Origin: Stutzerimonas stutzeri | Lineage (GTDB): Bacteria; Pseudomonadota; Gammaproteobacteria; Pseudomonadales; Pseudomonadaceae | Length of the DNA stretch: 64,000 nt | Reading direction: 5' to 3' | Assembly: GCF_019090095.1 (NCBI RefSeq) | Contig: NZ_JAGQFP010000001.1 | Span: 682,001-746,000 of the forward strand | Part shown: piece by piece, positions 23,134-50,084 of the stretch | How the letters are laid out: every line of letters starts with the position of its first letter | How positions within the stretch are numbered: position 1 is the stretch's first letter | Made by a program: the position numbers and the translations under genes | Notes under the pieces: generated by a model | Databases searched by the model: none | Told to the model about the DNA's origin: nothing | The model's input: only the letters and a program-made list of their open reading frames with translations

Positions 23134-23194
23134 ACTCCAGAATCCTGGACATGCAGCCCCGATCCCTTTTGTTATGTCCAGATTTCTGGATGAA
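23134..23194. promoter_or_regulatory. Paired activator sites (ATGTCC-N8-GGACAT type) upstream of TRAP operon
   Basis: Site 1, 23134-23153, is GACTCC-AGAATCCT-GGACAT; site 2, 23175-23194, is ATGTCC-AGATTTCT-GGATGA. Each has an inner palindrome TCCAG-N4-CTGGA or TCCAGA-N2-TCTGGA. They are 41 bases apart and end 62 bases before the -24 element, a normal place for enhancer-binding protein sites. Three other promoters in the window have the same arrangement. Confidence 0.65.
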
Positions 23195-23254
23195 GGCGCT
23201 TACAGCTTTCGTTTGAACCGCTCTAGAATCGGGCTTTCATAAGCTTGCCAAACC

Positions 23255-23271
23255 CCGGCACAAAACCTGCT
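23255..23271 (+). promoter_or_regulatory. Sigma-54 promoter of the TRAP operon
   Basis: CCGGCACAAAACCTGCT has GG and GC separated by exactly 10 bases (23257-23258 and 23269-23270) and fits YTGGCACGRNNNTTGCW. Transcription would start near 23282, about 105 bases before the ATG. Confidence 0.7.
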
Positions 23272-23387
23272 AAGCAATAGCGGCAACGCTCAGAACCCTG
23301 TCGGAACGAGCACGCTGCGGCAGGCTCATTCCGCGTCCCGGCTAGATGACCGGGCTGCATACCAAAACAACAAAAAAGGAATCTGTA

Positions 23388-24473
23388 ATGTCGATTACCA
23401 AGAAGCTCACCCGCCTCGCCTGCGCCATCGGCGCCACCACCCTGCTCAGCGCGACGCTGGTAAGCGCCAATGCCACCGCCGCCGAGAAGGTCCGCTGGCA
23501 GGTCCCGCTGGCGTTCCCCTCGCATCTGGTCGGTTTGACCACCCCGATCAAGCACCTGTCCGAGTCGCTCAAGGCCATCTCCGGTGGCGACATCCAGCTG
23601 CGCTACTACGAGCCCGGCGAACTGGTACCGCCGTTCGAGATCATGGATGCGGTGAGCAACGGCAAGTACCCGGCCGGCTATACCTGGATCGGCTATGACC
23701 AGGGCACCATTCCAGCCCTGCCGCTGTATTCGGGCGCACCTTTCAACATGGAACCGCCGGCATACCTGGCCTGGTACTACGAAGGCGACGGCAAGAAGTT
23801 GCTCGAGGAAATCTACGCCGAGCGCAACATTCATCCGATGCTGTGCAGCATCATCGGCCCGGAAGGCGCCGGCTGGTTCGCCAAACCGGTGGAGAAGCTG
23901 GAAGACTTCGACGGCCTGCGCATCCGCTTCGCCGGCATCGGCGGCAAGGTCCTGGAAAAACTCGGCGCCTCGGTCACCATGATTCCGGGCGGCGAGATCT
24001 ACCAGGCGCTCGAGCGCAAGACCATCGATGCCACCGAGTTCTCGCAGCCGGCGATCGACAAGATGCTGGGCCTGGACCAGATCATCAAAAACTACATCAT
24101 GCCGGGCTGGCACCAGACACTGACCACCTCGCACCTGCTGGTCAACAAGGGCGTGTGGGACAAGCTGGAGCCGCAAAGCCGCGCGCTGATCGAGATGGGT
24201 TGCGAATCGGCCACGCTCAAAGGTTTTGCCGAAAGCGAGTGGGCCCAGCCGACTGCCCTGCGCGACTACGAGAAGCAGGGCGTGAAGGCCCAGGTATTGC
24301 CGGAGCCGGTATTGCGCGAACTGGAGCGTGTGACCAACGAAGTGCTGGACGAGATCGCCGCGAAGGACGAGATGTTCAACCGCGTCCTGACCAGCCAGCG
24401 CGACTTCATGAAGCATCATTCCATCTGGCACAGCAAAGGCTACCTGCCGCGCGACTTCTACAAGTACGACTGA
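23388..24473 (+). CDS. TRAP transporter substrate-binding protein (DctP family)
   Basis: A 361-residue periplasmic binding protein. A signal peptide ends near ANATAA before EKVRWQVPLAFPSHL. The conserved DctP features are the FDGLRIRFAG stretch, whose arginine clamps the carboxylate of the ligand, and the helix region GGEIYQALERKTIDATEFSQPA. It captures an organic acid for the DctQ-DctM permease. ATG at 23388 follows AAAAAGGAATCTGTA. The sigma-54 promoter and shared operators with the hydroxybutyrate dehydrogenase gene suggest a hydroxyacid ligand, which is inference. Confidence 0.92.
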   Translation: MSITKKLTRLACAIGATTLLSATLVSANATAAEKVRWQVPLAFPSHLVGLTTPIKHLSESLKAISGGDIQLRYYEPGELVPPFEIMDAVSNGKYPAGYTWIGYDQGTIPALPLYSGAPFNMEPPAYLAWYYEGDGKKLLEEIYAERNIHPMLCSIIGPEGAGWFAKPVEKLEDFDGLRIRFAGIGGKVLEKLGASVTMIPGGEIYQALERKTIDATEFSQPAIDKMLGLDQIIKNYIMPGWHQTLTTSHLLVNKGVWDKLEPQSRALIEMGCESATLKGFAESEWAQPTALRDYEKQGVKAQVLPEPVLRELERVTNEVLDEIAAKDEMFNRVLTSQRDFMKHHSIWHSKGYLPRDFYKYD

Positions 24474-24660
24474 TCGAAGCGTCAGGCCTGATGCCCCAAG
24501 GCGGGGCTCTTCCAAGGCTCGACTGAGCGGACAGGATGCGCAGCGCTAGCGGTTTCGCTGCGCGCCCCTCCGCCCAAACGAGCCCGACCCGCCTGCCGGG
24601 CCTCGGACCGCACGACCAGGTCGTACCTGTATTCCTCAATTTCGGATCTCCGAGGTGGCC

Positions 24661-25275
24661 GTGTCCGCTCATCCCGTTTCCCCTAACGACGCAGTACCCG
24701 CCGCCCAGGCGGATGCCCTGCCCCACAACCGACTGTCCTACTGGCTGGACCGGGCGCTGGTTGCGATCGGCGAAGCCAGCGCCTGGATCTGGCTGCTGGT
24801 ACTGGCCGTGGTGCTGACCAACGTGTTCAGCCGCTTCGTGCTATCGCGCGGTTCCATCGCGCTGGAGGAGCTGTCCTGGCACCTGTTCGGCGCCGCCCTG
24901 ATGCTTGCCCTGGCCTATGGGGTCGTGCGCGACGATCACGTACGCGTCGACGTGCTGCGAGAGAAATTCAGCTTGCGCAGCCAGGCGATCATCGAACTGC
25001 TGGCCATCGCATTCCTGGCCTTGCCGGTCGTGGTGATGATGGTCGAGGCGCTGGTGCCCTTCGCCTACCAGGCCTTCCTCTACAACGAGCGCTCCCAGGC
25101 GCCCAGCGGCCTGCCGCATCGCTTCATCTTCAAGAGCGTACTGCCGCTCGGCCTGACGCTGTTGGCGATCGCCCTGCTGTCACGGGCCAGCCGTTGCAGC
25201 ACGCTGCTGTTCAATTTCCCTCGGGTCTTCACGGCCCCGACGCATGCCCGCGACCGCGGCCATTCGCAGCCCTGA
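24661..25275 (+). CDS. TRAP transporter small permease (DctQ family)
   Basis: A 204-residue four-helix membrane protein. The DctQ core is visible: LVVLTNVFSRFVLSRGS, then LEELSWHLFGAALMLALAYGVVRDDHVRVDVL. It bridges the binding protein and DctM. The start is uncertain: GTG at 24661 lies 6 bases after CCGAGG, while an earlier GTG at 24655 is too close to any ribosome site. The 187-base gap after dctP contains an inverted repeat (CCCAAGGCGGGGC region) that could lower expression of the permease relative to the binding protein. Confidence 0.88.
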   Translation: MSAHPVSPNDAVPAAQADALPHNRLSYWLDRALVAIGEASAWIWLLVLAVVLTNVFSRFVLSRGSIALEELSWHLFGAALMLALAYGVVRDDHVRVDVLREKFSLRSQAIIELLAIAFLALPVVVMMVEALVPFAYQAFLYNERSQAPSGLPHRFIFKSVLPLGLTLLAIALLSRASRCSTLLFNFPRVFTAPTHARDRGHSQP

Positions 25276-25291
25276 TGGAGTAGCCGTAATC

Positions 25292-26659
25292 ATGGGTCTG
25301 GAACAAATTCTCGTCATCAGCATGTTCGCCACCTTCATGGGCCTGTTGCTGCTTGGCTTCCCGGTGGCCTGGTCCCTGGCCGGCATCGGCCTGCTGTTCG
25401 CCGTATTCGGCCATGTACTGGTCGAATATTTCGACGCCGATCTCTGGTTCACCTGGGACGGCACCATCGGCGTGCTCGATGCGCGCATCTACGGCATTGT
25501 CGCCAACGAATTGATGGTCGCCCTGCCCCTGTTCATCTTCATGGGCATCATGCTCGACCGCTCCGGCATCGCCGAGCGGCTGATGCACAGCCTGGTACGC
25601 GTGCTCGGTCCGCTGCGCGGCGGCTACGCGGTGACTGTGGTGCTGGTCGGCATCCTGCTCGCCGCGTCCACCGGGATCGTCGGCGCGTCGGTGGCGCTGC
25701 TCGGCATGCTCTCCGTTGGCCCCATGCTGCAGGCCAAGTACAACAAGAGCCTGGCCGTCGGTACCGCCTGCTCGGTAGGCACCCTGGGCATCCTGATTCC
25801 ACCCAGCATCATGCTGGTCCTGATGGCCGACCGCCTGGGCACGTCCGAAGCCTCGGTGGGCAAGCTGTTCATGGGTGCGTTGATTCCCGGCATGATGCTG
25901 GCGCTGATGTACATCCTCTACATCGTCATCGTGTCCTGGCTGAAGAAGGACTTCGCCCCCGCGCCAGCCAACCGCTCGAAGCTCGACGGGCGCGCGCTGC
26001 TCGATGTGTTCTGGGCTGTGGTGCCGCCGTTCGTCCTGATCCTCGCGGTGCTGGGCTCGATCTTCTTCGGTATCGCCACCACCACCGAGGCGTCGGCGGT
26101 GGGTGCCGTCGGCGCGGTGATCATGGCGGCCTGCAGCCGCAAGCTGAACCTCGCGGTGCTCAAGGAAGCGCTCTACCAGACCAGCCGCACCTCGGCGTTC
26201 ATCTTCGGCATCTTCATCGGCGCCACGGTGTTCGCCGCGGTGTTGCGCGGCCTGGGCGGCGACGACGTGATACGCGCGGCATTGACCGGGCTGCCCTTCG
26301 GCCAGACCGGCGTCCTGCTGACGGTGCTGTTCATCACGTTTCTGCTGGGGTTCTTCCTGGATTGGGTGGAGATCACCCTGATCATCCTGCCGCTGGTGGC
26401 GCCGGTGCTGTTCTCCATGGGCGTCGATCCGCTGTGGTTCGCGATCCTCTTCGCGCTCTGCCTGCAGACCTCGTTCCTGACGCCGCCCGTGGGCTTCGCG
26501 CTGTTCTACATCAAGGGTGTCTGCCCGCCTGAGGTGAGCACGCGCGATGTCTACCTGGGCGTGCTGCCGTACATCCTGATTCAACTGCTGGGGCTGGCGC
26601 TGGTGTTCTTCTTCGCGCCACTGGCCACCTGGCTGCCCAACGAGGTGTACGCGCAGTAA
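25292..26659 (+). CDS. TRAP transporter large permease (DctM family)
   Basis: A 455-residue integral membrane protein with about 12 hydrophobic segments, the ion-coupled transport channel. Family stretches include ALPLFIFMGIMLDRSGIAERL, AASTGIVGASVALLGML, GTLGILIPPSIMLVL and QTSFLTPPVGFALFY. ATG at 25292 (MGLEQILVIS) lies after GATGGAGTAGCCGTAAT; the frame start at 25244 lies within dctQ and is unlikely. It ends the TRAP operon; the sigma-54 activator gene follows 107 bases later in the same direction. Confidence 0.92.
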   Translation: MGLEQILVISMFATFMGLLLLGFPVAWSLAGIGLLFAVFGHVLVEYFDADLWFTWDGTIGVLDARIYGIVANELMVALPLFIFMGIMLDRSGIAERLMHSLVRVLGPLRGGYAVTVVLVGILLAASTGIVGASVALLGMLSVGPMLQAKYNKSLAVGTACSVGTLGILIPPSIMLVLMADRLGTSEASVGKLFMGALIPGMMLALMYILYIVIVSWLKKDFAPAPANRSKLDGRALLDVFWAVVPPFVLILAVLGSIFFGIATTTEASAVGAVGAVIMAACSRKLNLAVLKEALYQTSRTSAFIFGIFIGATVFAAVLRGLGGDDVIRAALTGLPFGQTGVLLTVLFITFLLGFFLDWVEITLIILPLVAPVLFSMGVDPLWFAILFALCLQTSFLTPPVGFALFYIKGVCPPEVSTRDVYLGVLPYILIQLLGLALVFFFAPLATWLPNEVYAQ

Positions 26660-26766
26660 CAAGCGCCTCGCGTAGGCGTCTTAGCCCGGCTGGCATGCCG
26701 GCTGCCTTGCCCCGAGCAGCCGGCGCCTCCCATAATCGGGCGATCCCATCAGGATTGAGCTTTTCC

Positions 26767-28257
26767 ATGGCAATTGCACGCAACGACCTTGACCATGACG
26801 GCCTGGTGATCGGCGTCTCCCCCGAGCGCTTTCGCGCCGTGGCGATGCCGTTATTGTTCGACCACCTCAACGCGCAGTGCGAAGGCACCATCGCGGTCAA
26901 CCGCCAAGCGCGCATCGTCTGGATCAACGACAAGTACGCCGAGAAGATCGGCATCAGCGATCCGCGCGGCGTGCTCGGCAAGGAAGTCGAGGAGGTATTG
27001 CCGGCCAGCCGTCTGCGCGAGGTCGTCGACAGCGGTCTGCCGAGCATGCTCGACCTGATGGCCTTCGGCGATGAACACTTCGTGGTGACGCGCATTCCGC
27101 TGCGCGACGAAGACGGCACCCTGGTCGGCGCACTGGGTTTCGTGCTGTTCGACCGCGCGCAGCACCTCAAGCCGCTGATGTCCAAGTTCAACATCCTGCA
27201 GACCCAGCTGGTCGCGACCCAGAACGAACTGGCCAAGGCCCGCCGGGCGCGCTACACCATTGCCGGGTTCATCGGCAGCAGCCCGGCCGCCAGCGAAGTG
27301 AAGCGCCAGGCACGACGCGCCGCGCAGCTGGACGCCACGGTGCTGATCCGCGGCGAAACCGGCACCGGCAAGGAGTTGTTGGCCCAGGGCATTCATAACC
27401 TGTCGCCGCGTGCCAATGGCCCCTTCGTGGCAGTCAACGTAGCGGCGATCCCGGAAACCCTGGTCGAAGCCGAACTCTTCGGTACCGCGCCCGGTGCCTT
27501 CACCGGCGCCGACCGCAAGGCGCGCATCGGCAAGTTCGAAGTGGCCAACGGCGGCACCTTGTTTCTCGACGAGATCGGCGACCTGCCGTTGGCGCTGCAG
27601 GCCAAACTCCTGCGCGTGCTGCAGGAGCAAGAAATCGAGCCGCTGGGCTCCAACCAGGTCAAACCACTCAACGTGCGGGTGATTGCGGCCACGCACATCG
27701 ATCTGGAAGCCAAGGTCGCCGCAGGCGAATTCCGCGACGACCTTTACTACCGCCTCAACGTGCTGGCCTTGAAGGTCCCGCCACTGCGCGAGCGCGCCGC
27801 CGATATACCCGCCGTGATCGAACACCTGCTCGACGACATCGCCAACCGCTCCGGCCAGCCGCCGATGGAACTGGCGCCAAGCGCGATTGCTTTACTGTGC
27901 AGCCAGCCGTGGCGGGGCAACGTTCGCGAACTGGGCAATCTGCTCGAACGAGCCCAGCTAAGCGCTGACGGAACGCCGCTGGAGGCGCGCTATTTCACGC
28001 CGTTGTTGGGCACGCAGAGCGTCGCCCCACCACAGGCCGCTCTTTCGCCGACCGAGCCAAGCTTTGTGGAGCCGATGGCAGAAGCCAACGCACCCTTGCA
28101 GCGCCTGGCCGAAAGCGTGGCCCAGGCCGAGCGCCGCGCCCTGCAGACCGCCCTGCTCGCCTGCAAAGGCAACCGTCGTCGGGCGGCAACCGAGCTGGGC
28201 ATCTCGCGCGCCAGCTTGTATTCGAAGCTGCAATTGCACGGACTGAGCGAGCGGTAG
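26767..28257 (+). CDS. Sigma-54-dependent activator, PAS-AAA+-Fis
   Basis: A 496-residue enhancer-binding protein. Residues about 30-135 are a PAS domain ([21 protein letters not shown]), followed by a short coiled coil ([19 protein letters not shown]). The AAA+ domain has Walker A GETGTGKE (196-203), the sigma-54 contact loop GAFTGA (243-248) and [10 protein letters not shown]. The C-terminus is a Fis-type helix-turn-helix ([19 protein letters not shown]). It lies between the TRAP operon and the hydroxybutyrate dehydrogenase, both with sigma-54 promoters. In P. aeruginosa the activator HbcR controls bdhA similarly, so this may be its counterpart. Confidence 0.9.
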
Positions 28258-28287
28258 CGCCAGCGACCCGCACGTAACCATCAACCT

Positions 28288-28701
28288 GTAGGGTGGGCTT
28301 TAGCCCACCGCGTGGCACCTGGTTTCTCACAACCTACCCAGTCTGTTGCTGCCACCGGAACCACTGGTGGGCTGAAGCCCACCCTACAAACCGGAGCGAG
28401 ACCGCCCCCATACCGACCCGCACCCGTAGGGTGGGCTTTAGCCCACCACGTGGCACCTGGTTTCTCACAACCCACCCAGCCTGTTGCTGCCACCGGAACC
28501 ACTGGTGGGCTGAAGCCCACCCTACAAACCGGTGCGAGACCGCCGCCATACCAACCCGCACCCGTAGGGTGGGCTTTAGCCCACCGCGTGGCACCTGGTT
28601 TCTCACAACCTACCCAGTCTGTTGCTGCCACCGGAACCTCTGGTGGGCTGAAGCCCACCCTACAAACCGGCGCGAGACCGCCGCCATACCAACCCGCACC
28701 C
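28288..28701. repeat. Three 138-bp tandem repeats with inverted ends
   Basis: Units start at 28288, 28426 and 28564, exactly 138 bases apart and nearly identical. Each begins with GTAGGGTGGGCTTTAGCCCA and ends with the inverted copy (GGTGGGCTGAAGCCCA and CCCTAC), about 60 bases apart, so each can form a long-armed hairpin. They fill the 484-base gap (28258-28741) between the convergent activator and dehydrogenase genes, where no other gene is seen. They are not CRISPR: there are no variable spacers. Confidence 0.95.
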
Positions 28702-28741
28702 TACAACTCAGGGCGAGGCCGCTGACGTCAGGCGACGGCTC

Positions 28742-29512
28742 TTATTGCGCCAACCAGCCACCATCGACATTCCACGCAACGCCACGCACCTGGCGCGCCG
28801 CATCGCTGCACAGGAACACCGTCAATTCACCCAGCTGCTCGGGCGTAACGAAGTCCAGCGAAGGCTGCTTTTCCATCAGCAACTCACGGGTCGCGCGGAG
28901 CGGATCACCGTGGGCCTGCGCCTTGCTGTCGATCTGCTGTTGAACCAGCGGCGTCAGCACCCAGCCGGGACAGAGTGCGTTGCAGGTGACGCCCGTGGTC
29001 GCGGTTTCCAGCGCGACGGTCTTGGTCAGGCCCACCAGGCCATGCTTGGCCGCCACATAGGCGGCCTTTTGCGCCGAGGCCACCAAACCATGGACCGAGG
29101 CGACATTGATGATTCGCCCCCAGTTGCGCTCACGCATCCCAGGCAGGGCCAAACGCATGGTGTGAAAAGCCGAGGACAGATTGATCGCGATGATGCTGTC
29201 CCAGCGCTCGACGGGAAAGGATTCGACCGGGGCGACGTGCTGGATCCCGGCGTTGTTGACCAGTACGTCCACCGCGCCGAATTCGCGCTCGGTCTGGGCG
29301 ACCAGGTCAGCGATCTGGTCCACATCGGACACATCCGCCGGGTGATGCGCTACCCGCGAGCCATACGCCGAGACGCACTTGAGCGCGGCGTCGACGTCAC
29401 CGAAGCCGTTGAGCATCACGTTGGCACCCGCCTCGGCCAGCTTGCACGCGATCCCAAGGCCGATACCGCTGGTCGAGCCGGTGACCAGCGCAGTCCTGCC
29501 TTTCAACATCAT
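28742..29512 (-). CDS. bdhA: 3-hydroxybutyrate dehydrogenase
   Basis: A 256-residue classical short-chain dehydrogenase. It carries the NAD motif TGSTSGIG (residues 11-18), NNAG, and the catalytic set Ser139, Tyr152 and Lys156 (AAYVAAKHG). ALCPGWVLTPLVQQQI and the C-terminal VRGVAWNVDGGW are typical of (R)-3-hydroxybutyrate dehydrogenases, which make acetoacetate. ATG at 29512, 6 bases after GGAG, is chosen over a TTG at 29524. A sigma-54 promoter lies ~240 bases upstream with a pair of activator sites beyond it. A small frame ends overlapping its start. Confidence 0.88.
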   Translation of the reverse strand: MMLKGRTALVTGSTSGIGLGIACKLAEAGANVMLNGFGDVDAALKCVSAYGSRVAHHPADVSDVDQIADLVAQTEREFGAVDVLVNNAGIQHVAPVESFPVERWDSIIAINLSSAFHTMRLALPGMRERNWGRIINVASVHGLVASAQKAAYVAAKHGLVGLTKTVALETATTGVTCNALCPGWVLTPLVQQQIDSKAQAHGDPLRATRELLMEKQPSLDFVTPEQLGELTVFLCSDAARQVRGVAWNVDGGWLAQ

Positions 29513-29676
29513 GTCGAGCTCCAATGGCTTGGTGGAGAGGCCAGCAGCGCGGAGCGATCCGCGCCTGGCTGTCCTTCAGCATAGCGGCTGTCGCAACGGA
29601 CGCCGCGCGGAACCAAGGCCAGCGGTAGATAGCGGCTGGGGCAGCGCCCACGAAGGGATAGGGGTAAGGCGGTCAT
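29509..29676 (-). CDS. Possible 55-codon leader frame upstream of bdhA
   Basis: A short frame begins MTALPLSLRGRCPSR and its ATG is preceded by ACAAGGAATATCCC, a good ribosome site. Its TGA lies inside the ATGATG of bdhA, so translation could be coupled. The product has no recognised family, and codon content is arginine-rich as in random high-GC frames. It could be the remnant of a deleted first gene, a leader peptide, or noise. It lies downstream of the predicted transcription start near 29750. Confidence 0.3.
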   Translation of the reverse strand: MTALPLSLRGRCPSRYLPLALVPRGVRCDSRYAEGQPGADRSALLASPPSHWSST

Positions 29677-29760
29677 GGGATATTCCTTGTTGTTCTGGTC
29701 GTGCCCGGCGCGGGCATCGCGTCCCGGCGCAAGGGATGGCGAGCGAGACCACCGGATACC

Positions 29761-29777
29761 AGCGAAAGCCGTGCCAG
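29761..29777 (-). promoter_or_regulatory. Sigma-54 promoter of bdhA
   Basis: Read on the minus strand, CTGGCACGGCTTTCGCT matches the -24/-12 consensus almost fully, with GG (29775-29774) and GC (29763-29762) 10 bases apart. It differs by one base from the promoter of the second porin (50068-50084). Confidence 0.75.
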
Positions 29778-29862
29778 AGTGCAGAGTCGCCGGAAAAAAC
29801 AGGCGCAACCGCGCGATGCCTGGTCAACGGCCGTGTCGAGCCGCGCGCAAGACCCGCCCTAC

Positions 29863-29933
29863 ATGTCCGCCAGGCTGGACATGCTCAGCAAAGTAAACAT
29901 GGCGTTACGCAGCCTGTCCCGCTGGCTGGACAG
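29863..29933. promoter_or_regulatory. Paired activator sites upstream of bdhA
   Basis: Site 1, 29863-29882, is the perfect dyad ATGTCC-GCCAGGCT-GGACAT. Site 2, 29914-29933, is CTGTCC-CGCTGGCT-GGACAG, also perfect. They are 51 bases apart and begin 88 bases upstream of the -24 GG. Binding by the activator encoded at 26767 is inferred. The rest of the 29934-30088 gap before the GST gene shows nothing else I can name. Confidence 0.7.
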
Positions 29934-30088
29934 CCCGCCGAGCGGCGGTATTGCGTCACGACTGAAAATCCCGTCGCGCGGCCATCCCGCGCGGCTTTGT
30001 TCACCCGCTATCACCGGTTGGCTATGCTCAATGCCACCCAACCGGTTCGCCGGCCAACGCAGCCCCGTCCTCTGGAGACGACCCGCCC

Positions 30089-30697
30089 ATGCAACTGATC
30101 TATGCCCCCGCCTCGCCCTTCGCCCGCAAAGTCCGGGTACTCGCCATCGAAAACGGGCTGATGGACCGGCTCGAGCCTGTCGAGACCTCAGTCATGCCCG
30201 TGGCCCTCAACGAGCGAGTCAACGCCGCCAACCCGCTCGGCAAGATCCCGGTACTGATGCTGGACGACGGCCAAGCGCTGTATGACAGCCGGGTGATATG
30301 CGAATACCTCGACAGCCTGCACGACGGCGTACGGCTGTTTCCCACCGACGCGCCCAGGCGCTGGTCTACCTTGCGCCTGGCGGCGCTGGCCGACGGGCTA
30401 ATGGATGCGGCCGTGCTGGCGCGCTACGAGAAGGCAATGCGCCCGGCCGAACGCCAGTGGGACGAATGGCTCGACGGCCAGCTCGGCAAGGTGCGCCGCG
30501 CCCTGCGTGCGCTGGAAGACAGCGCCGCGCCGTTGCAAGGCCCGCTGGACATCGCGCAGATCGGTGTCGCCTGTGCGCTGGGCTATCTGGACTTTCGCTT
30601 TGCCGAACTCTACTGGCGCAACGAATTCCCGGCGCTGACCGCCTTCCAGGAGCGGTTTTCGGCCCGCGACTCCATGCGCCAGACCGAACCCGCATAA
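30089..30697 (+). CDS. Glutathione S-transferase family protein
   Basis: A 202-residue GST-fold protein. The N-terminal thioredoxin-like domain starts MQLIYAPASPFARKVRVLAIE, where Ser or the following residues would contact glutathione; NPLGKIPVLMLDDG and LYDSRVICEYLD are the conserved cis-proline and Ser-containing loops. The C-terminal half is helical. It resembles the YibF/small bacterial GST group. Substrate is unknown. It is divergent from bdhA and convergent with phosphoglucomutase; a 9-bp stem GGCGCTGCG/CGCAGCGCC at 30720-30747 lies between the convergent genes. Confidence 0.87.
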   Translation: MQLIYAPASPFARKVRVLAIENGLMDRLEPVETSVMPVALNERVNAANPLGKIPVLMLDDGQALYDSRVICEYLDSLHDGVRLFPTDAPRRWSTLRLAALADGLMDAAVLARYEKAMRPAERQWDEWLDGQLGKVRRALRALEDSAAPLQGPLDIAQIGVACALGYLDFRFAELYWRNEFPALTAFQERFSARDSMRQTEPA

Positions 30698-30719
30698 CGC
30701 GCGGGCTCGCTCGCGAGGC

Positions 30720-41545: not shown

Positions 41546-41614
41546 CTTCAACCTCGTCTCGGTGGCGGGCATTCCCCGCCTGCAATAGGCACGCAGTCCA
41601 TCGACCGTGGTGTA

Positions 41615-42439: not shown

Positions 42440-42626
42440 GGCATACCCCAGTTAGACGATCAGTTGCATATTCTCGACGATTTGGATCCTGAACGATACA
42501 GCGGCTGCGCATTATGTCCCTGCACCTGACGCACGACGCACCGATGTCCTGAGCCGATCGCGACACCGCCCCGCCCGTGCCGTCAGCGCCCACCTCAGTC
42601 CCACTCACGAAAGGTAGAACAACGTC

Positions 42627-43424
42627 ATGACCACCGCATCCAAAACCCGCAACGCCATCGCCGCCGCCCTGCTCGCCGTATCCGCGCTGGGCAGCGCAGC
42701 GACTTTCGCGGCCGACAAGCCGACCGTCATCCTGGTCCACGGCGCCTTTGCCGAATCGGCGAGCTGGAACGGTGTCGCCTCACGTCTGATCGACCAGGGC
42801 TATCCGGTGGTCGCCGCTGCCAACCCGCTGCGCGGCGTAGCGAATGATGCCGCCTACGTCTCCAATCTCATCGAGCACACCGCCGGCCCCATCGTGCTGG
42901 TTGGCCACTCCTACGGCGGTAGCGTCATCACCAATGCGGTCAAGGGCAGCAGCAAGGTCAAGGCGCTGGTCTACGTGGCCGCCTTTGCACCTGCGGTCGG
43001 CGAGAGCGCCGCGACGCTGGCCAGTCAGTTTCCCGGCAGTACGCTCGGCCCGACCCTGGCCGAACCCGTGCAACTCGGCGACGGCAACCAGGACCTGTAC
43101 ATCCAGCAGGACAAGTTCGCCGAGCAGTTCGCCGCCGACGTTCCAGCGGCCGAAGCGGCGCTCATGGCCGCAACCCAACGCCCGGTCACGGCGGCCGCGC
43201 TGAACGAAAACAGCCAGCAGAGTGCCTGGGACTACGTGCCGTCCTGGTTCGTCTACGGCACCGCCGATAAGAACATCCCGGAAGCGGCGCTGAAGTTCAT
43301 GGCCGACCGTGCGGGTTCGCGCAAGACGCTGACCATCCCAGGCGCCTCGCACGTGGTGATGACCTCGCACCCTGACGAAGTCGCCGCGCTGATCACCGAA
43401 GCCGCCGAGGCTACGGCCAAATAA
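42627..43424 (+). CDS. Exported alpha/beta hydrolase
   Basis: A 265-residue hydrolase with a signal peptide (cleavage near SAATFAADKP), so periplasmic. The nucleophile elbow is VGHSYGGSVIT; the acid is likely Asp in FVYGTADKNIP and the base His in GASHVVMTSHP. Similar proteins have esterase or cofactor-free dioxygenase-like folds; no substrate is assigned. ATG follows GAAAGGTAGAACAACGTC. A 10-bp stem GCCGGTCGAC/GTCGACCGGC at 43442-43473 follows the stop. Confidence 0.88.
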   Translation: MTTASKTRNAIAAALLAVSALGSAATFAADKPTVILVHGAFAESASWNGVASRLIDQGYPVVAAANPLRGVANDAAYVSNLIEHTAGPIVLVGHSYGGSVITNAVKGSSKVKALVYVAAFAPAVGESAATLASQFPGSTLGPTLAEPVQLGDGNQDLYIQQDKFAEQFAADVPAAEAALMAATQRPVTAAALNENSQQSAWDYVPSWFVYGTADKNIPEAALKFMADRAGSRKTLTIPGASHVVMTSHPDEVAALITEAAEATAK

Positions 43425-43441
43425 CGCGAAGCAACGCATGC

Positions 43442-43473
43442 GCCGGTCGACGAGCTTGGGCTTGTCGACCGGC
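43442..43473 (+). terminator. Hairpin after the exported hydrolase gene
   Basis: Perfect 10-base arms GCCGGTCGAC and GTCGACCGGC with a 12-base loop, 18 bases after the stop codon. No clean T-run follows, so it is a probable but not certain terminator. Confidence 0.5.
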
Positions 43474-43527
43474 CTTGTCGTGTCTACCGGCTGGCAAAGG
43501 TACATGGCCGCCACGGCCCGACCGGTC

Positions 43528-44421
43528 TCACAGCGAACCCAGAATGTGCTCGCGTAGCCATTGATGTGCCGGGTCGCGGTGACAGCGTTCATGCCACAGC
43601 ATCGCCATTTCGTAGCCCGGCACCTCCACTGGCGGCTCGACCACCCGAAGCGCAGCATTGTCCCGCACCAGGCGCCACGGCAGCATGGCGACCAGGTCAG
43701 TGCCTATCAGGGCGGCGATTACGAACAGGAAATGGGGCACGGACAGTGCCACGCGACGTGACAAGCCGGCGGCTGCCAGCACGCTGTCGGTGACGCCACT
43801 GAAGCCACCGCCACGCGGCGATACCACGACATGCGCAAGCTCGCAGAACTGCGCGATGCTCGGTCGCCGCGTCAAAGCCGGATGCCCGGCGCGTCCAGCC
43901 AGCACGTAACGTTCGGCGAACAGTACGCGGCGATGCAGGCCCAGCGGTGCGTCATCGCTGGTATGGAAGGCCAGGTCGATGTCGCCCTGCTCCGCCTGTT
44001 TGGCAATCCGCGTCGGTGCCATCTCGACGACCGCCAGCCGGGCGCCCGGCGCCTGCTGGCGAAGCCCCACGAGAGCCGGCAGTACGATGGTCGATTCGGC
44101 GTAATCCGTCGCTGCGACACGCCAGGTCGGTGCAGCCCCGGAAGGGTCGAACGGTGCCGACGGCGAGACCACCTGGCGCAACGCCTCGAGCACCTGACGC
44201 AACGGCTCGCGCAGCTCCTGCGCTTTCGCTGTAGGCCGCATGCCGCGTGGTCCTGGGAGCAGCAGCGGATCGGCAAAGAACTCGCGTAGCTTGGCCAGGT
44301 GCACGCTCACCGATGGCTGGGCCAGATTCAGACGCTGCGCCGCACGGGTCACGTTCTGCTCATCCAGCAGCACATCGAGCGTCAGTAACAAATTGAGATC
44401 GAGCTTACGGAGATTACTCAT
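43528..44421 (-). CDS. LysR-family transcriptional regulator
   Basis: A 297-residue LysR protein in the NodD/NahR-like group: MSNLRKLDLNLLLTLDVLLDEQNVTRAAQ starts at 44421 (residues 1-29 region), with an in-frame alternative at 44436. The effector domain shows the usual ATDYAESTIVLPAL start. It is divergent from a quinone-reductase-like gene with 86 bases between and probably controls it. This LysR-NQO arrangement is common in proteobacteria, where electrophiles or quinones induce the reductase. Confidence 0.92.
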   Translation of the reverse strand: MSNLRKLDLNLLLTLDVLLDEQNVTRAAQRLNLAQPSVSVHLAKLREFFADPLLLPGPRGMRPTAKAQELREPLRQVLEALRQVVSPSAPFDPSGAAPTWRVAATDYAESTIVLPALVGLRQQAPGARLAVVEMAPTRIAKQAEQGDIDLAFHTSDDAPLGLHRRVLFAERYVLAGRAGHPALTRRPSIAQFCELAHVVVSPRGGGFSGVTDSVLAAAGLSRRVALSVPHFLFVIAALIGTDLVAMLPWRLVRDNAALRVVEPPVEVPGYEMAMLWHERCHRDPAHQWLREHILGSL

Positions 44422-44507
44422 GGCAATACCTGGCATTTCAAGTATTCATTTTTAACATAGCTCAGGGCGCTTCATGCTCTCCCTACCAACTCAAGGGAGC
44501 TCAGCTC

Positions 44508-45290
44508 ATGAAGATTCTGATCGTCTATGCCCATCCGGAACCCCGCTCGTTGAACGGTGCCCTGAAGAACTTCTCGGTCCAGCGACTCGAAGCCGCGGGC
44601 CACCAGGTGCAGGTGTCGGACCTCTACGCCATGCAATGGAAGCCCTCGGTCGATGCCGAAGACAACTTGGACCACCTGCCAGGCGCGCGCTTCGAACCCT
44701 CGCTCAGCTCCAAGCAGGCATTCGAAAACGCAAAGCAGTCCGCCGACATCGCCGGTGAACAGGAGAAACTGCGCTGGGCCGACGCGGTGATTCTGCAATT
44801 TCCGCTGTGGTGGTTTTCCATGCCCGCCATTCTGAAAGGCTGGATCGATCGGGTGTACGCGTACGGCTTCGCCTATGGTGTCGGCGAGCACTCCGATACG
44901 CACTGGGGCGACCGCTACGGTGAAGGCACCCTCGCCGGCAAGCGCGCCATGCTGGTGGTGACCGCAGGTGGCTGGGAATCGCATTACGGCCCGCGCGGGG
45001 TCAACGGGCCGATCGACGACCTGCTGTTCCCAATCCAGCACGGCATCCTGTTTTACCCGGGCTTCGATGTCCTACCGCCATTCGTGGTCTATCGAACCAG
45101 CCGGATGGACGAGGATCGCTACGCGACGGTGTGCCATCGCCTGGGCGAGCGTCTCGACACGCTATTCAACACTGCACCGATCGCCTTCCGCCCGCAGAAT
45201 GCGGGGGCCTACGACATCCCGTCGCTCACCCTGCGTGAGCAATTCGCGCCCGGTGAATCAGGCTTCAAGGTGCATGTCGCTCGTTCGTAG
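44508..45290 (+). CDS. NAD(P)H:quinone oxidoreductase-like flavoprotein
   Basis: A 260-residue flavodoxin-fold protein of the NQO1/MdaB group. KILIVYAHPEPRSLNGALKNF binds FMN/FAD phosphate, FPLWWFSMPAILKGWIDRV is the signature active-site loop, and VTAGGWESHYGPRG follows the family. It reduces quinones or related electrophiles by two electrons, using NAD(P)H. Divergent LysR is the likely regulator. A stem TGCCGGGCAAG/CTTGCCTGGCA at 45309-45334 follows the stop. Confidence 0.9.
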   Translation: MKILIVYAHPEPRSLNGALKNFSVQRLEAAGHQVQVSDLYAMQWKPSVDAEDNLDHLPGARFEPSLSSKQAFENAKQSADIAGEQEKLRWADAVILQFPLWWFSMPAILKGWIDRVYAYGFAYGVGEHSDTHWGDRYGEGTLAGKRAMLVVTAGGWESHYGPRGVNGPIDDLLFPIQHGILFYPGFDVLPPFVVYRTSRMDEDRYATVCHRLGERLDTLFNTAPIAFRPQNAGAYDIPSLTLREQFAPGESGFKVHVARS

Positions 45291-45308
45291 ACGCTCAGGG
45301 CCGCGCAC

Positions 45309-45334
45309 TGCCGGGCAAGCCCGCTTGCCTGGCA
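45309..45334 (+). terminator. Hairpin after the quinone reductase gene
   Basis: Arms TGCCGGGCAAG and CTTGCCTGGCA (one mismatch) with a 4-base loop, 18 bases after the stop. No T-run is seen, so strength is uncertain. Confidence 0.45.
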
Positions 45335-45552
45335 GGCTCCCGTCTAGAGCACCTCGTTGTCGGTCGGCAACGCGAAAACCGATGGGAACGGGCTAAACAA
45401 AAGCCGCCCTCTACCGATAACCCGGTATGCCAGGCGAGACGCACCTTTCGGTGAGTCGCGCAAGGAATCTGCCAGCCGGTTCTTCTTCTCCGCCTCGTAC
45501 GTCGCAGCGGGTGCCGAAACCGGTATCGCCCATCCCAGAACGGAGCTGCACC

Positions 45553-45969
45553 GTGCAACTGATCGATAACCGAGCGCTGATCAACGACGCCCTGCGCCAA
45601 TCCGCCGAGCTAACCGGCGGGCGTTTCGATCATCGCTACTGGTTGAGCAAGGTGACGGACGTGAAACTGCTGATCATCTCCAAGCCGGAGGTGCTCTTCG
45701 ACCTGTCGGTCAAGGTCTACATCCCATTGCCAGCCGGGCAGAAAACGCCGCTCACCTATGGCGACGGCTGGTTCAACTGGCACTTCCTCGGCAGCAAGAG
45801 CGCCGTAGTCACCATCGCTCGAGAAATCCTCACCATCGCCCTGCGCAACCGCAGGTCCAACTCGGCAGTGCTGCAGGCCTGGCTTACCGAGCTGGTGTCG
45901 TTCAAGCACAGCGAGCACACCATCGCCGTGCTCGAGCCGGAGCCGCAGCAGGACCTCGCCGGCCGTTAG
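45553..45969 (+). CDS. Hypothetical protein
   Basis: I do not recognise this 138-residue protein. It would start at a GTG (QLIDNRALINDALRQSAEL follows) after CGGAGCTGCACC; an ATG-started frame from 45427 is longer but its first 40 residues look like shadow sequence. It has no signal peptide or membrane segment, and holds mixed hydrophobic/charged segments such as RFDHRYWLSKVTDVKLLI and a Trp-rich GDGWFNWHFLG. Its last 4 bases overlap the end of the convergent antiporter gene. Soluble cytoplasmic protein of unknown role. Confidence 0.6.
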   Translation: MQLIDNRALINDALRQSAELTGGRFDHRYWLSKVTDVKLLIISKPEVLFDLSVKVYIPLPAGQKTPLTYGDGWFNWHFLGSKSAVVTIAREILTIALRNRRSNSAVLQAWLTELVSFKHSEHTIAVLEPEPQQDLAGR

Positions 45970-47606
45970 GCCGGCTCGCCGGCGCCAAGGGCCGCTTCTT
46001 CGTAGTCCAGTTCCTGCAGCAGCGTCTGCAACATCTGCTCGTCGATCACATAGCGTTTGCGCATCCGGTACAGCTCCTTGCGCTGCACCGCGATAGCCTG
46101 CAGCCGAATATCGCGTTCCAGGGCCATCGTCTGGCGGGCCTGGTTGGTGCGCTCGTGGTGGTCCATCAGCGCCTCGATGTCCTTGCGGTAGGACTCGGTA
46201 ACCCGCGCGGTCACCTCGCTGCGCAGCAGCATCTGGTCCGGATCTTCCACCGGGTTGGCCTGCTTCCAGTTTTCCAGCCAGCTGACAGCTGCCTGCGCGG
46301 CGGTCCGACGGGCTTTCTTCAACTCTTCCCGATGCTGCTCTATGTCGTTGTTGGGCAGCTTCTTCAGAAAATAGGGGATGCCCAGGGCGCCGACCAGCAA
46401 CGACAGGATGATCACCGCGGCGGCGAGGAAGATCATCAGGTCGCGGCCCGGGAATGGGGTATCGCCAATCATCAGCGGTATCGACAGCACACCGGCCAGG
46501 GTGATGGCCCCGCGCACGCCCGCCACCGCGCTCAGCGCGGAAAACAGCGGTAGCGGCTTGGGTTGCACCGTCTTGCCGAGCAGACGGAGTACCCGCGCCT
46601 CGCTCCAGTGATAAGCGAAAACGAACAGGAAGCGAATCACCAGCAGCAGCGCCATGATCGCCAGCGCACTGAACACCAGCATCGGCATGCTGTAGGTTTC
46701 GTGGCCTGCCGCCGCCCAGACGCGCTCGACGATGCGCGGGAACTGCAGCCCGAGCAGCAGGAACACCAGACCATTGAAGCTGAAATCGAGCATCTCCCAG
46801 ATGCTGCGATTGAGGATGCGCGTGCTGGTCTTGACCGGCAACATGTCGATCCGGCTCTGGATCATGCCCGCGGCCACCGCCGACAGGATGCCGGACATCC
46901 CGGCATGCTCGGCCAGGAAAAACGCCGCGAAAGGCAGCAGCAGAATCATCACGACGTAGGTCGACGGATCGAACAGGTTGCGCGCCGTCATCCATTGCTT
47001 GGCCTTGCCGACCGCCCAGCTCAGGCCGGCGCCAATGGCCAGTCCGCCGAGGGCGATGACGAAGAATTCGCCGGTCACGCTGGCCATCGAGAAGGTGCCG
47101 GTAATCGCTGCCGCCAACGCGAACTTGAAGGACACCAGGCCGGTGGCGTCATTCATCATCGCCTCGCCTTCCAGCTGATGCGCCATGTGCCGCGGCAACC
47201 GGCCCTGGGCGATGGCGATCACCGCCAGAGCGTCGGTAGGCGACAGGATCGCGGCCAGGGCGAAGCTTGCCCCGAGCGGAATCGCGGGCAGCAACCAGTG
47301 GATGAAATAGCCGACCACAACGAGGATCACCAGCACCAGCAGCAGCGACATGGCGCTCATCTCGGCGCCGTGCTCGGTGAATTCGCGCTTGGGGATCTTC
47401 CAGCCGTCGTAGAACAGCAACGGCGGGATGAACAGCAACATGAAGATCTCAGGTCGCAGCTCGACGCCCATGCCGAACGGCGGAAGCGCCAGCACACTGC
47501 CCATGATGATCTGCAAAATGGGTAACGGGAGAGGTACGACGTTGGCCAGAACACGGCTTGCTCCCACTGCGAGTAACAGCAGGAAGATCAGGTAAAGCGT
47601 TTCCAT
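45966..47606 (-). CDS. Na+/H+ antiporter, CPA1 (NhaP/YjcE) family
   Basis: A 546-residue protein. About 12 membrane segments occupy residues 1-420, and a charged cytoplasmic tail follows (RTAAQAAVSWLENWKQ, then two helical stretches). The ion-binding region SPTDALAVIAIAQGRLPRHM and EGEAMMNDATGLVSFKFAL (ND motif) is intact, so exchange of Na+ or K+ for protons is likely. METLYLIFLLLLAVGASR at 47606 is the conserved start; the longer frame to 47729 adds a non-conserved tail. Convergent overlap with the preceding hypothetical gene. Confidence 0.92.
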   Translation of the reverse strand: METLYLIFLLLLAVGASRVLANVVPLPLPILQIIMGSVLALPPFGMGVELRPEIFMLLFIPPLLFYDGWKIPKREFTEHGAEMSAMSLLLVLVILVVVGYFIHWLLPAIPLGASFALAAILSPTDALAVIAIAQGRLPRHMAHQLEGEAMMNDATGLVSFKFALAAAITGTFSMASVTGEFFVIALGGLAIGAGLSWAVGKAKQWMTARNLFDPSTYVVMILLLPFAAFFLAEHAGMSGILSAVAAGMIQSRIDMLPVKTSTRILNRSIWEMLDFSFNGLVFLLLGLQFPRIVERVWAAAGHETYSMPMLVFSALAIMALLLVIRFLFVFAYHWSEARVLRLLGKTVQPKPLPLFSALSAVAGVRGAITLAGVLSIPLMIGDTPFPGRDLMIFLAAAVIILSLLVGALGIPYFLKKLPNNDIEQHREELKKARRTAAQAAVSWLENWKQANPVEDPDQMLLRSEVTARVTESYRKDIEALMDHHERTNQARQTMALERDIRLQAIAVQRKELYRMRKRYVIDEQMLQTLLQELDYEEAALGAGEPA

Positions 47607-47828
47607 GAGGCGGAGGGCTCTTGCTAGATGTAAAGACGGCGCATAGGACCGAAACGCGTGTGACAAAAGTATAGTCAGGCGTTTGGGTATAGCCGGCTCG
47701 TTCGTCAGATCCGTTGGAACTAACGCCACGAGGCCGATTGTCGTTGCATGTAGCGTCAGACGTAGCGCGTCCAGCTACCGTCACGCGCTGGCGCTGGTTT
47801 TCTGTCGCTTATCGCCGCCGTTTATCGG

Positions 47829-47900
47829 ATGTCCATCCGTGCGGACAGTCTGTCCAGGCGGGCAGGCATTTCGGCTTCTCCTGTCAAGTTGCCCGGACAC
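47829..47900. promoter_or_regulatory. Activator sites upstream of the tannase-family gene
   Basis: Site 1, 47829-47848, is ATGTCC-ATCCGTGC-GGACAG. Site 2, 47881-47900, is CTGTCA-AGTTGCCC-GGACAC. They are 52 bases apart, as in the bdhA promoter (51). A weaker match CTGTCC-N8-AGGCAT lies between at 47850-47869. The proximal site ends 109 bases before the -24 GG. Confidence 0.6.
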
Positions 47901-48007
47901 CGTCCTGCCCAGTCAGGTTGCTCCGCCACACGGCCCGGAGTGTCTGCCATGCGGTGTTACCGGGGTAGCGCGACCGCTCATCCGGCGTTCGGCTGCCGCC
48001 GGGGTGG

Positions 48008-48024
48008 CTGGCATGGGTTTGGCT
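48008..48024 (+). promoter_or_regulatory. Sigma-54 promoter of the tannase-family gene
   Basis: CTGGCATGGGTTTGGCT has GG (48010-48011) and GC (48022-48023) 10 bases apart and matches the consensus at most positions. Transcription would begin near 48035, about 93 bases before the ATG. Confidence 0.65.
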
Positions 48025-48127
48025 GTGGGCCTTCTGGCATCAAGCCCGGCGCTGGGGTTCCCTGCCCGGGTGCGCTCGCCTCGCGGTGTTGGCCGCAGGC
48101 AGAACAACAACAAGAAGGAAGCCCTCC

Positions 48128-49846
48128 ATGAATGCACCTCGCATTGCCCGCGCCAAAGGCTCACGGCTGCTGCTGGCCGCCCCGGTCCTGCTTACGGCTG
48201 GCCTGGTCGAACCCGTTTTCGCCGCCGGTTGCAACGAACTGTCCAGCATCCAAGTGCCAGCGTCCGCTATTGCCTTGCCGAGTACCGGCGCGCGCGTGAC
48301 CTCGGCCACGCCGGTGCCGGCCGGAGGCACTCCACCGCAGGCCTTCGGCCCCTATTGCGACGTGACCGCGGAGATTACCCCGGTCGATCCGAGCGCACCG
48401 ACGATCAAAATGCGCCTGGTATTGCCCGAACGCTGGAACAGCAAAGCGATGATGTACGGCGGCGGTGGCTACAACGGCACCGTGCCCAATGTGGCCGGCA
48501 ACGTTCCGGCAGGCCCGGTCGACCAGCCCACGCCATTGGGCCGCGGCTACGCGGTATTCGCCAGCGACTCGGGCCATGTCGCCAATCCGCTCAGCCCCGG
48601 TGATTTCGCCTGGAACGAGGAGGCGCTCGCCAACTACGCGCACGATGCGCTGAAGAAAACCCGTGACACGGCGATCTACCTGATCCAACAGCGCTACGGC
48701 CAAGCGCCGTCGCGCAGCTACTTTGCCGGCGGCTCGACCGGCGGGCGCGAAGCCCTCGCGGTGGTGCAACAGTGGCCGACGGATTTCCAGGGTGCGATCG
48801 CCCTCTATCCGGCCTGGAACGCGGCAGCCCTGGACCTGCAGTTCGGCCGCATCACCCGCGCGCTGGCCGCACCCGGCGCCTTCCCCAGCCTCGAAAAACG
48901 CGCGGCGTTGCTGGAGGCCGCGATGCAGGCCTGCGATGGGCTCGATGGTGTCCGCGATCGGGTGATCAGCAACCAGGCAGCCTGCAATGCGTGGTTCGAT
49001 CCGGCGAAAGCCAAGCTCGATGGCCGTCCGCTGCGCTGCCCGGCAGGTGCCGATACCGGCGATTCCTGCCTGTCGGACGCACAGATCCACGCCTTGAAGG
49101 TGTTCGATACGCCGATCCGGTTCAGCCAGCCGCTGGCCAGTGGAGAACGCGGTTATCCGGGCTTCAACACCTGGGGCACCGATCTGGGCCGACCCGGCGA
49201 GGGGTTGCAGCTGATCGTCAACCGGCTGGGCCTCAACACCTTGCAGCCCGACTATCCGATGCCCGTACACGGTACCGGTTTCGCCGAGGGTGCCCCCTAC
49301 CACTCAGGCTTCTGGGATGAGTGGGTGCGTCACTTCGTGACGCGCAACCTTGCGTTCAACTCGTTGACACTGGACCCGACCAACCTGGGCCCCTGGCAGG
49401 CGCGGGTCGATGCGCTGTCGCTGCGCCAGGACGTCAATCAGACGGATCTTTCGGCATTCGTGGCCAACGGCGGCAAACTGCTGGTCGCCCACGGCACCTC
49501 GGATCAGCTGGTGAGTACCCGTTCCAGTGCCGATTACTATCGGCGAGTGCAGCACGACATGGGCAAAGGGCAGACTCGGCAGTTCATGCGCTACTACGAG
49601 ATTCCCGGCTACGCACATGCCGCCAGTACCGTCTTCAATGCCGCCTGGGATTCGTTGACGGCCCTGGAAAATTGGGTCGAGCGCGGCATTGCGCCCAAGC
49701 GGCAAACGGTTACCGACACCGTCGCGGTACCCGGCCGTACCCGGCCGCTCTGCGAGTACCCGGCCTGGCCGAAATACAAGGGCCGCGGCGATGTGAACGC
49801 GGCGGCCAGTTTCGTCTGCGTGAAGAGCCAGAAAGGCCGGCACTAG
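48128..49846 (+). CDS. Exported tannase/feruloyl-esterase-family hydrolase
   Basis: A 572-residue esterase of the tannase family (PF07519 type), with a signal peptide ending near VEPVFAAG. The proposed triad is Ser203 (FAGGSTGGREAL), Asp459 (AHGTSDQLVS) and His497 (GYAHAAST). The family normally has Cys just before the Ser and just after the His, forming a disulfide (CS-D-HC motif, also in MHETase). Here they are Gly202 and Ala498, so both are absent. Product is periplasmic or secreted. Preceded by a sigma-54 promoter and followed by a porin gene with the same type of promoter. Substrate unknown; an aromatic or hydroxyacid ester. Confidence 0.85.
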   Translation: MNAPRIARAKGSRLLLAAPVLLTAGLVEPVFAAGCNELSSIQVPASAIALPSTGARVTSATPVPAGGTPPQAFGPYCDVTAEITPVDPSAPTIKMRLVLPERWNSKAMMYGGGGYNGTVPNVAGNVPAGPVDQPTPLGRGYAVFASDSGHVANPLSPGDFAWNEEALANYAHDALKKTRDTAIYLIQQRYGQAPSRSYFAGGSTGGREALAVVQQWPTDFQGAIALYPAWNAAALDLQFGRITRALAAPGAFPSLEKRAALLEAAMQACDGLDGVRDRVISNQAACNAWFDPAKAKLDGRPLRCPAGADTGDSCLSDAQIHALKVFDTPIRFSQPLASGERGYPGFNTWGTDLGRPGEGLQLIVNRLGLNTLQPDYPMPVHGTGFAEGAPYHSGFWDEWVRHFVTRNLAFNSLTLDPTNLGPWQARVDALSLRQDVNQTDLSAFVANGGKLLVAHGTSDQLVSTRSSADYYRRVQHDMGKGQTRQFMRYYEIPGYAHAASTVFNAAWDSLTALENWVERGIAPKRQTVTDTVAVPGRTRPLCEYPAWPKYKGRGDVNAAASFVCVKSQKGRH

Positions 49847-49908
49847 CACCGCCTCGTCGCCGCTTCACGGTCATCATCAGATGGCGCGGCGGCGGAAGCG
49901 GCAACTTA

Positions 49909-49970
49909 GGGTCCAGCAGGCTGGACAGTCTCCAGCCTGCCTGACCGAACATGTCCGGCCAGGCAGACAA
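49909..49970. promoter_or_regulatory. Paired activator sites upstream of the second porin
   Basis: Site 1, 49909-49928, is GGGTCC-AGCAGGCT-GGACAG. Site 2, 49951-49970, is ATGTCC-GGCCAGGC-AGACAA. Spacing is 42 bases, as in the TRAP promoter (41). The proximal site ends 99 bases before the -24 GG. Confidence 0.62.
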
Positions 49971-50067
49971 CCCTCCCCTCCACATACGCCGTAAGCGTCC
50001 TACGCTCGCTGCGGCGCAAGCTCTAGCTCGCAGTCTCCCGCCAACCAAAGTCGATGCACCGTCCCGC

Positions 50068-50084
50068 CTGGCACGGCATTCGCT
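50068..50084 (+). promoter_or_regulatory. Sigma-54 promoter of the second porin
   Basis: CTGGCACGGCATTCGCT is a near-consensus -24/-12 promoter, with GG (50070-50071) and GC (50082-50083) spaced by 10. It differs from the bdhA promoter by one base. Confidence 0.78.

Follow-up and report, generated by a model that had tools for sequence, protein, structure and literature searches.

Four sigma-54 promoters with one operator type in Stutzerimonas stutzeri: a predicted regulon of an HbcR-related activator, most likely for 3-hydroxybutyrate use

Introduction

The closest described regulator is HbcR (PA2005) of Pseudomonas, reported to control bdhA and the use of (R)-3-hydroxybutyrate in an RpoN-dependent manner (Harris/Lundgren et al. 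2015, as cited in PMC13390443, PMC8694187 and PMC10482368). The main text of PMC8041468 makes no mention of PA2005 or HbcR. The subject of the present work is a window of 64,000 nucleotides from Stutzerimonas stutzeri (the whole stretch of DNA that was analysed, C1:682001-746000 in a genome of 4.94 Mb), and within it a sigma-54 activator gene together with four gene groups, dctPQM, bdhA, an esterase gene and oprD, which carry one type of paired operator in front of sigma-54 promoters. An initial annotation had proposed that this activator binds at all four. Like HbcR, the activator has a PAS-AAA+-Fis architecture, sigma-54 promoters and paired palindromes of the same length, and bdhA is among its predicted targets as judged by sites and promoter. 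Unlike HbcR, it falls into a separate clade with another recognition helix, its operator reads TGTCCA-N6-TGGACA compared with TGTCTC-N6-GAGACA at HbcR-like loci, and its predicted target set is wider, adding a TRAP transporter, a porin and the esterase.

The esterase resembles the MHETases of PF07519 (8ekg, 6qz2 and others), in which a Cys pair beside the Ser and the His makes up the CS-D-HC motif. It scores over the cut-off of the family profile, aligns with 8ekg over residues 70-565 and keeps the Ser, Asp, His triad, whereas Gly and Ala stand in place of the two Cys flanking the catalytic Ser and His (GCS to GGS, HC to HA). Extracellular polyhydroxybutyrate (PHB) depolymerase systems (TIGR01840 / NF050058) are alike in that close orthologs in six family genomes carry the same operators, and unlike in that the genome of the window is without a depolymerase over the cut-off.

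Results

The activator and its predicted targets

The activator gene at 26767-28257 is the one sigma-54 activator gene in the window, as the initial annotation had it, while the whole genome has 23 PF00158 matches, 18 of them strong. Its product scores over the cut-offs of both PF00158 and PF02954, and its start codon matches that of the orthologs (MAIA...). The esterase and oprD pair lies approximately 20 kb beyond the dctPQM-activator-bdhA cluster, in which the activator gene is probably co-transcribed with dctPQM. The genes concerned are as follows.

26767-28257, plus strand: sigma-54 activator, subfamily A, with PAS, AAA+ (GAFTGA) and Fis-type helix-turn-helix domains (PF00158 at 233 bits, PF02954 (HTH_8), PF08448 (PAS_4); GAFTGA in the translation)
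23388-24473, plus strand: dctP, TRAP solute-binding protein (PF03480; nearest solved structure 7ug8, a ketoacid-binding protein)
24655-25275, plus strand: dctQ, TRAP small permease (PF04290)
25244-26659, plus strand: dctM, TRAP large permease (PF06808; TIGR00786 over cut-off)
28742-29512, minus strand: bdhA, 3-hydroxybutyrate dehydrogenase (NF009093 and TIGR01963 over cut-off; nearest solved structure 2q2q)
48128-49846, plus strand: secreted-looking MHETase-like esterase of the tannase/feruloyl esterase family (PF07519 at 370 bits; 8ekg MHETase at E 3.6e-52; signal peptide judged from sequence)
50139-51398, plus strand: oprD, OprD-family porin (PF03573 at 507 bits)

Every one of the four targets has paired sites upstream of a -24/-12 promoter. 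The promoter scan found the four sigma-54 promoters at the places first noted, and the eight paired sites are also present as placed, three of them exact, three with one mismatch and two with two mismatches to TGTCC-N8-GGACA; some of their coordinates had been given one lower because the leading A of ATGTCC was counted. The pair spacings of 41 (dctPQM), 51 (bdhA), 52 (esterase gene) and 42 bases (oprD) were right, and the distances from the proximal site to the -24 element, taken from the coordinates, are 63, 87, 109 and 99 bases in the same order, the last two also being given by the architecture scan. The two extra operators, at 23114 and 47851, were absent from the initial annotation. Operators are listed without strand; the matrix and the genome model are those of the next section.

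23256-23271, plus strand: sigma-54 promoter of dctPQM, CGGCACAAAACCTGCT (promoter and architecture scans; conserved in relatives in AGGCACAGAACCTGCT-like form)
29761-29776, minus strand, starting at 29776: sigma-54 promoter of bdhA, TGGCACGGCTTTCGCT (promoter scan, architecture scan, bdhA loci of relatives)
48009-48024, plus strand: sigma-54 promoter of the esterase gene, TGGCATGGGTTTGGCT (promoter and architecture scans)
50069-50084, plus strand: sigma-54 promoter of oprD, TGGCACGGCATTCGCT (promoter and architecture scans)
23114-23131: extra distal operator of dctPQM (20 bases before 23134; matrix rank 12; a third site here recurs in relatives)
23134-23151: distal operator of dctPQM (two mismatches; matrix rank 9; genome model)
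23175-23192: proximal operator of dctPQM (two mismatches; matrix rank 6; genome model)
29864-29881: proximal operator of bdhA (exact palindrome; matrix rank 1; genome model)
29915-29932: distal operator of bdhA (exact palindrome; matrix rank 4; genome model)
47830-47847: distal operator of the esterase gene (exact palindrome; matrix rank 2; genome model)
47851-47868: additional operator of the esterase gene (matrix rank 11; 21 bases beyond 47830)
47882-47899: proximal operator of the esterase gene (one mismatch; matrix rank 10; outside the genome-model matches at E<=10)
49910-49927: distal operator of oprD (one mismatch; matrix rank 3; genome model)
49952-49969: proximal operator of oprD (one mismatch; matrix rank 5; outside the genome-model matches at E<=10)

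Matrix ranks 7 (43096) and 8 (24734) fall outside the four promoters. The latter is a palindrome at 24734-24751 inside dctQ, found at the same place in many loci of the genus, and it may be an internal operator or merely conserved coding sequence.

Restriction of the architecture to the four promoters

Taken singly the elements are weak. The window contains 34 GG-N10-GC sites with a score of at least 9 on a scale chosen by us. Palindromes with no more than two mismatches number 43, where 29.2 are expected (standard deviation 4.9). A symmetric matrix was trained on 104 distinct 24-mers from the promoters of relatives, with the window excluded, and its consensus is TGTCCAG-N4-CTGGACA, the same as obtained from 66 of the 104 training sites. 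Within the window the eight claimed sites take ranks 1-6, 9 and 10, and ten positions score at least 12, eight of them being claimed sites, against 0.72 expected. The architecture was defined as two sites 38-64 bases apart followed by a sigma-54 element 40-140 bases further on; it occurs in the window at the four promoters only and in none of 30 simulated windows, figures to be read with the training sites having been selected by the motif and spacings of the initial annotation and the thresholds having been chosen by us. The earlier judgement that this grammar at four promoters is unlikely by chance holds for the combination, although the single elements are near chance.

Genome-wide, ten exact palindromes were found, three of them at these promoters, and the other seven have neither a partner site nor a positioned sigma-54 element nearby. 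The operator sequence model, which scored 150 of 1143 candidates, gave eight distinct places at E<=10 in the whole genome. Six are in these promoters, and the remaining two are lone sites that have neither a partner nor a promoter and apparently fall inside reading frames. On both scans we rejected a wider regulon for this genome, although weak members may be missed with 150 of 1143 candidates scored. The frequency test proposed at the outset thus turned out in favour of the claim, since neither the exact palindromes nor the operator model showed the architecture elsewhere in the genome.

Conservation in relatives

Sixty activator loci of the family were compared, 40 of the window's subfamily (subfamily A, 71-97% identical) and 20 of a second group (48-52%). 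Sites were counted as conserved when at least two with a score of at least 9 lay within 500 bases upstream. That was the case for all 21 near-group bdhA genes (identity 82-100%; 20 on the contig of the activator, G247 being fragmented) and for dctP in 20 of 21, counts that hold partly by construction because the loci used for training overlap those counted. The single dctP miss is probably L174, whose sites stand further upstream. Esterase genes have at least two sites in 29 of 30 cases, and in all 30 at score 8, each with a sigma-54 element. The conservation test had been set beforehand, and the sites are indeed kept upstream of orthologous bdhA, dctP and esterase genes. Among 30 oprD loci the architecture was found in 16, fifteen adjoining the esterase gene and one divergent from bdhA. 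As an internal control, none of 13 unlinked oprD paralogs has a site; the oprD of L345, behind an esterase and a CoA-transferase gene, has no own site either. Nine bdhA genes of the more distant group were sampled (77-78% identical; 23 further ones lie outside the sample), and none of them has a site pair with a promoter following at the usual distance. The spacings of neighbouring sites cluster at 20-21, 31-32, 41-42 and 50-52 bases, and the phase coherence reaches 0.85 for a period of 10.25 (N=118, close relatives contributing many).

Link between the sites and the activator

From other genera 18 activator loci were fetched, of which 14 entered the operator count and the other four were examined separately. 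All 14 counted loci have sites of the window's type (A-type) no more than 700 bases downstream of the activator gene, although their neighbour genes differ. The GntP-permease promoters in these genera have two or three sites in 10/10 cases and a sigma-54 element in nine, one just inside the predicted start. In L183-L196 subfamily A and its operators precede genes for a GntP permease and a FadX-like CoA-transferase, which replace bdhA and the esterase gene, so the substrate may differ there.

Over 56 genomes of the genus, activator and esterase were both present in 43 and both absent in nine, with two exceptions in either direction (Fisher p 4e-7, kinship uncorrected; a hand tally in which the fragments of G192, G223 and G247 were scored as presences). 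The genomes G207 and G143 have the esterase and no subfamily-A activator, and neither operators nor a sigma-54 element were found upstream of their esterase gene. G207 holds an activator of clade B (see below). The upstream sequences of the two look alike, so that the absence may be one event, and the comparison is the best natural test available in this analysis. The sites are tied to this activator because they are kept in other genera, are gone where subfamily A is gone, and are replaced by another operator at the loci of the paralog. Conservation, co-occurrence and the different operator of the paralog thus support the initial proposal that one activator serves all four promoters, its binding being predicted from these patterns, and it appears highly probable to us that the four gene groups form one regulon.

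Relation to HbcR

A tree of 91 activators, built by a quick method with supports from the Shimodaira-Hasegawa-like approximate likelihood ratio test (SH-aLRT) only, placed the window's activator in a 41-member clade (support 100). A separate 25-member clade (clade B, support 99) includes proteins of P. fluorescens and P. putida adjoining bdhA, and from this synteny we take clade B to be HbcR. The named HbcR-like loci and some tree rows came from a genome-contig scan, in which the matches listed were mostly distant relatives. The recognition helix reads SRASLYSKL in 26 of the 41 members of the window's clade, with related forms in the rest, and GRST(L/F)Y in 24 of the 25 members of clade B (two by eye), with SRSTLY in one. 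At up to two mismatches the 25 clade-B loci contain 38 TGTCTC-N6-GAGACA (B-type) sites, distributed over 21 loci, and two A-type sites, with 0.4 expected in shuffles; L207, L208, L212 and L215 have no B-type site at this threshold. The 14 loci of subfamily A from other genera contain 32 A-type sites and one B-type. Orthology of the window's activator to HbcR was rejected on the separate clade, recognition helix and operator, and by its sequence it belongs to a sister subfamily of HbcR.

As the operators differ between the clades, bdhA is subject to code A in some species, whereas in others it is found next to regulator B. Both activators occur together in several genomes, e.g., G133, G198, G044 and G127. 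Of these four, G127 alone showed both codes, with a B-type site within 700 bases of the clade-B gene; in G133, G198 and G044 no B-type site was found near the clade-B gene at up to two mismatches, which limits the following scenario. We put it forward tentatively and think it rather doubtful: a duplication may have given two activators of 3-hydroxybutyrate type, the operators would have drifted at two bases per half-site (TGTCCA versus TGTCTC), bdhA would have been divided between the codes, and subfamily A would have come to switch on an outside-in route for polyesters made up of depolymerase, MHETase-like oligomer hydrolase, porin, TRAP transporter and dehydrogenase. With two operators drifted apart, the paralogous activators would not need to cross-talk. 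In G235, a genome with clade B and no subfamily A, the stretch 17-53 bases beyond the activator match (L197) carries an A-type palindrome (one mismatch) and, immediately after it, a perfect B-type palindrome; this tandem is perhaps a remnant of operator change.

Function of the regulon

The family contains 17 TIGR01840 genes in 12 of 248 genomes. In L178 a PHB depolymerase of predicted secreted type (NF050058) is encoded near the activator gene, behind sites of its own, and a homolog is found likewise in L182. Each of the six close orthologs (sharing 62-100% identity with the L178 depolymerase) carries two or more A-type sites, and none of the eleven more distant TIGR01840 genes (25-55% identical) has an operator pair. 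A good sigma-54 element follows the depolymerase sites in G225, G138 and G231, in the last of which the depolymerase gene is approximately 666 kb away from the activator. Depolymerase, esterase, porin, transporter and dehydrogenase make up a coherent outside-in route for 3-hydroxybutyrate polymers or esters, and the function of the regulon is most likely uptake and catabolism of 3-hydroxybutyrate from such polymers or esters. We consider 3-hydroxybutyrate a likely end metabolite. The esterase could be an oligomer hydrolase, an assignment from which we lean slightly away. In G015 a gene for a CtpM-like chemoreceptor (sCache, MCP; L172:7652-9295) adjoins the activator and possibly serves chemotaxis to the same substrate.

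Neighbouring genes and repeats

Just upstream of the dctP promoter, at 19872-21733, lie two CoA-transferase subunit genes and a gene for a MerR-family regulator, without operators. We take the CoA-transferase to be of acetoacetate type, and it is a likely consumer of the BdhA product. Genes resembling pcaD and pcaF, and named by that resemblance, adjoin oprD at 51482-53750, and also in L172; they carry no high-scoring operators. A second OprD porin gene at 8220-9464 (minus strand) is 96% identical to oprD at 50139-51398. It was checked as a further target, and its upstream region has neither operators nor a sigma-54 element; it looks like a recent duplicate or converted copy under different control. 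The gap between the activator gene and bdhA contains, at 28284-28701, three direct repeats of approximately 142 bases with a period of 138, which are 95-96% identical and include GGGTGGGCTTTAGCCCACC-type inverted repeats.

Discussion

The explanation we prefer, i.e., a subfamily-A activator, four sigma-54 promoters and an outside-in route for 3-hydroxybutyrate, is in our opinion probable as a whole. Dimers of the activator would occupy two or three copies of TGTCCAG-N4-CTGGACA in front of dctPQM, bdhA, the esterase gene and oprD, and the activator would open the sigma-54 promoters of these four units. With sites two to five helical turns apart, the dimers would sit on the same face of the helix, and the AAA+ ring would loop from there to the promoter. 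The PAS domain would sense a small hydroxy-acid, with 3-hydroxybutyrate or something closely related as the most likely candidate. Outside the cytoplasm the esterase, in some species together with the PHB depolymerase, would cut an ester, an oligomer or a polymer. OprD and the TRAP transporter would import the acid, and BdhA would oxidise it to acetoacetate. If read through from dctPQM, the activator gene would amplify itself.

The regulon might be real and its substrate an aromatic or other ester unrelated to 3-hydroxybutyrate, with the esterase and porin feeding the adjoining pca pathway and bdhA serving another product. The esterase family does act on aromatic esters, the nearest solved structures are MHETases and feruloyl esterases, and the pca-like genes stand next to oprD both here and in L172. 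However, bdhA and, in relatives, the PHB depolymerase genes bear the same sites, the pca genes of the window are without a high-scoring operator, and L173-L175 have esterase and oprD beside the activator with no pcaD match in the locus; such a substrate seems unlikely to us. The sites might also be read by another regulator, e.g., another strong sigma-54 activator among the 17 other strong PF00158 matches of the genome, the window's activator being a mere neighbour. This is improbable, since the sites follow subfamily A into other genera (14/14 loci, 10/10 GntP promoters) and disappear with it, and the loci of the paralog bear the other operator. It is still less probable that the activator is simply HbcR and the regulon the published 3-hydroxybutyrate regulon: approximately 50% identity to the HbcR-like group and the common target bdhA are set against separate clades, a different recognition helix and operator, and several genomes which hold both. 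A chance assembly of weak motifs would agree with single elements near chance level, but the combination was absent from all 30 simulated windows and is conserved over the genus, which makes chance negligible.

Several observations weigh against the preferred explanation. The proximal operators at 47882 and 49952 fall below the genome-wide limit of E<=10, which was reached by six of the eight claimed sites, and weak regulon members may be missed because of the 150 of 1143 candidates scored. The loci used for matrix training (L157-L182) overlap the counted dctP and bdhA loci, the esterase and oprD loci mostly not. The strict 38-64 rule was passed by 14 of 30 esterase loci, the others being spaced by approximately 20 or 31 bases. 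The activator loci L173-L176, L179 and L181 are without bdhA, and the distant bdhA of G210 has two sites in a genome where no activator was found. As to polymer use, no TIGR01840 depolymerase over the cut-off was found in the window's genome (best match 29.8 bits versus 107.85), the depolymerase promoters of G109, G155 and G020 read CC for the -12 GC, and G155 has no activator among the matches listed, its depolymerase gene being located 4.5 kb from a contig end. The pca genes next to oprD count here as well.

In mechanism the system is textbook sigma-54, and its nearest regulator is already known. The assignment of function and the relation to HbcR go beyond the initial annotation. As far as a literature search over titles and abstract openings shows, new are the subfamily, its operator, the distinction of this operator from that of HbcR type and the connection with depolymerase and esterase genes; in these titles and openings no description of such a regulon, or of the polyester route as one regulon, was found.

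If the explanation is true, it would identify for a group of Pseudomonadaceae a regulator and the DNA code that it reads, together with a probable route by which 3-hydroxybutyrate, the building block of a natural plastic, is taken up, and some PHB depolymerase genes would be tied to one sigma-54 activator. The promoters could then be used for sensors of bioplastic breakdown. The group would also offer a natural example of two paralogous activators that read separate operators, in which a shared target enzyme is placed under different regulators depending on the species.

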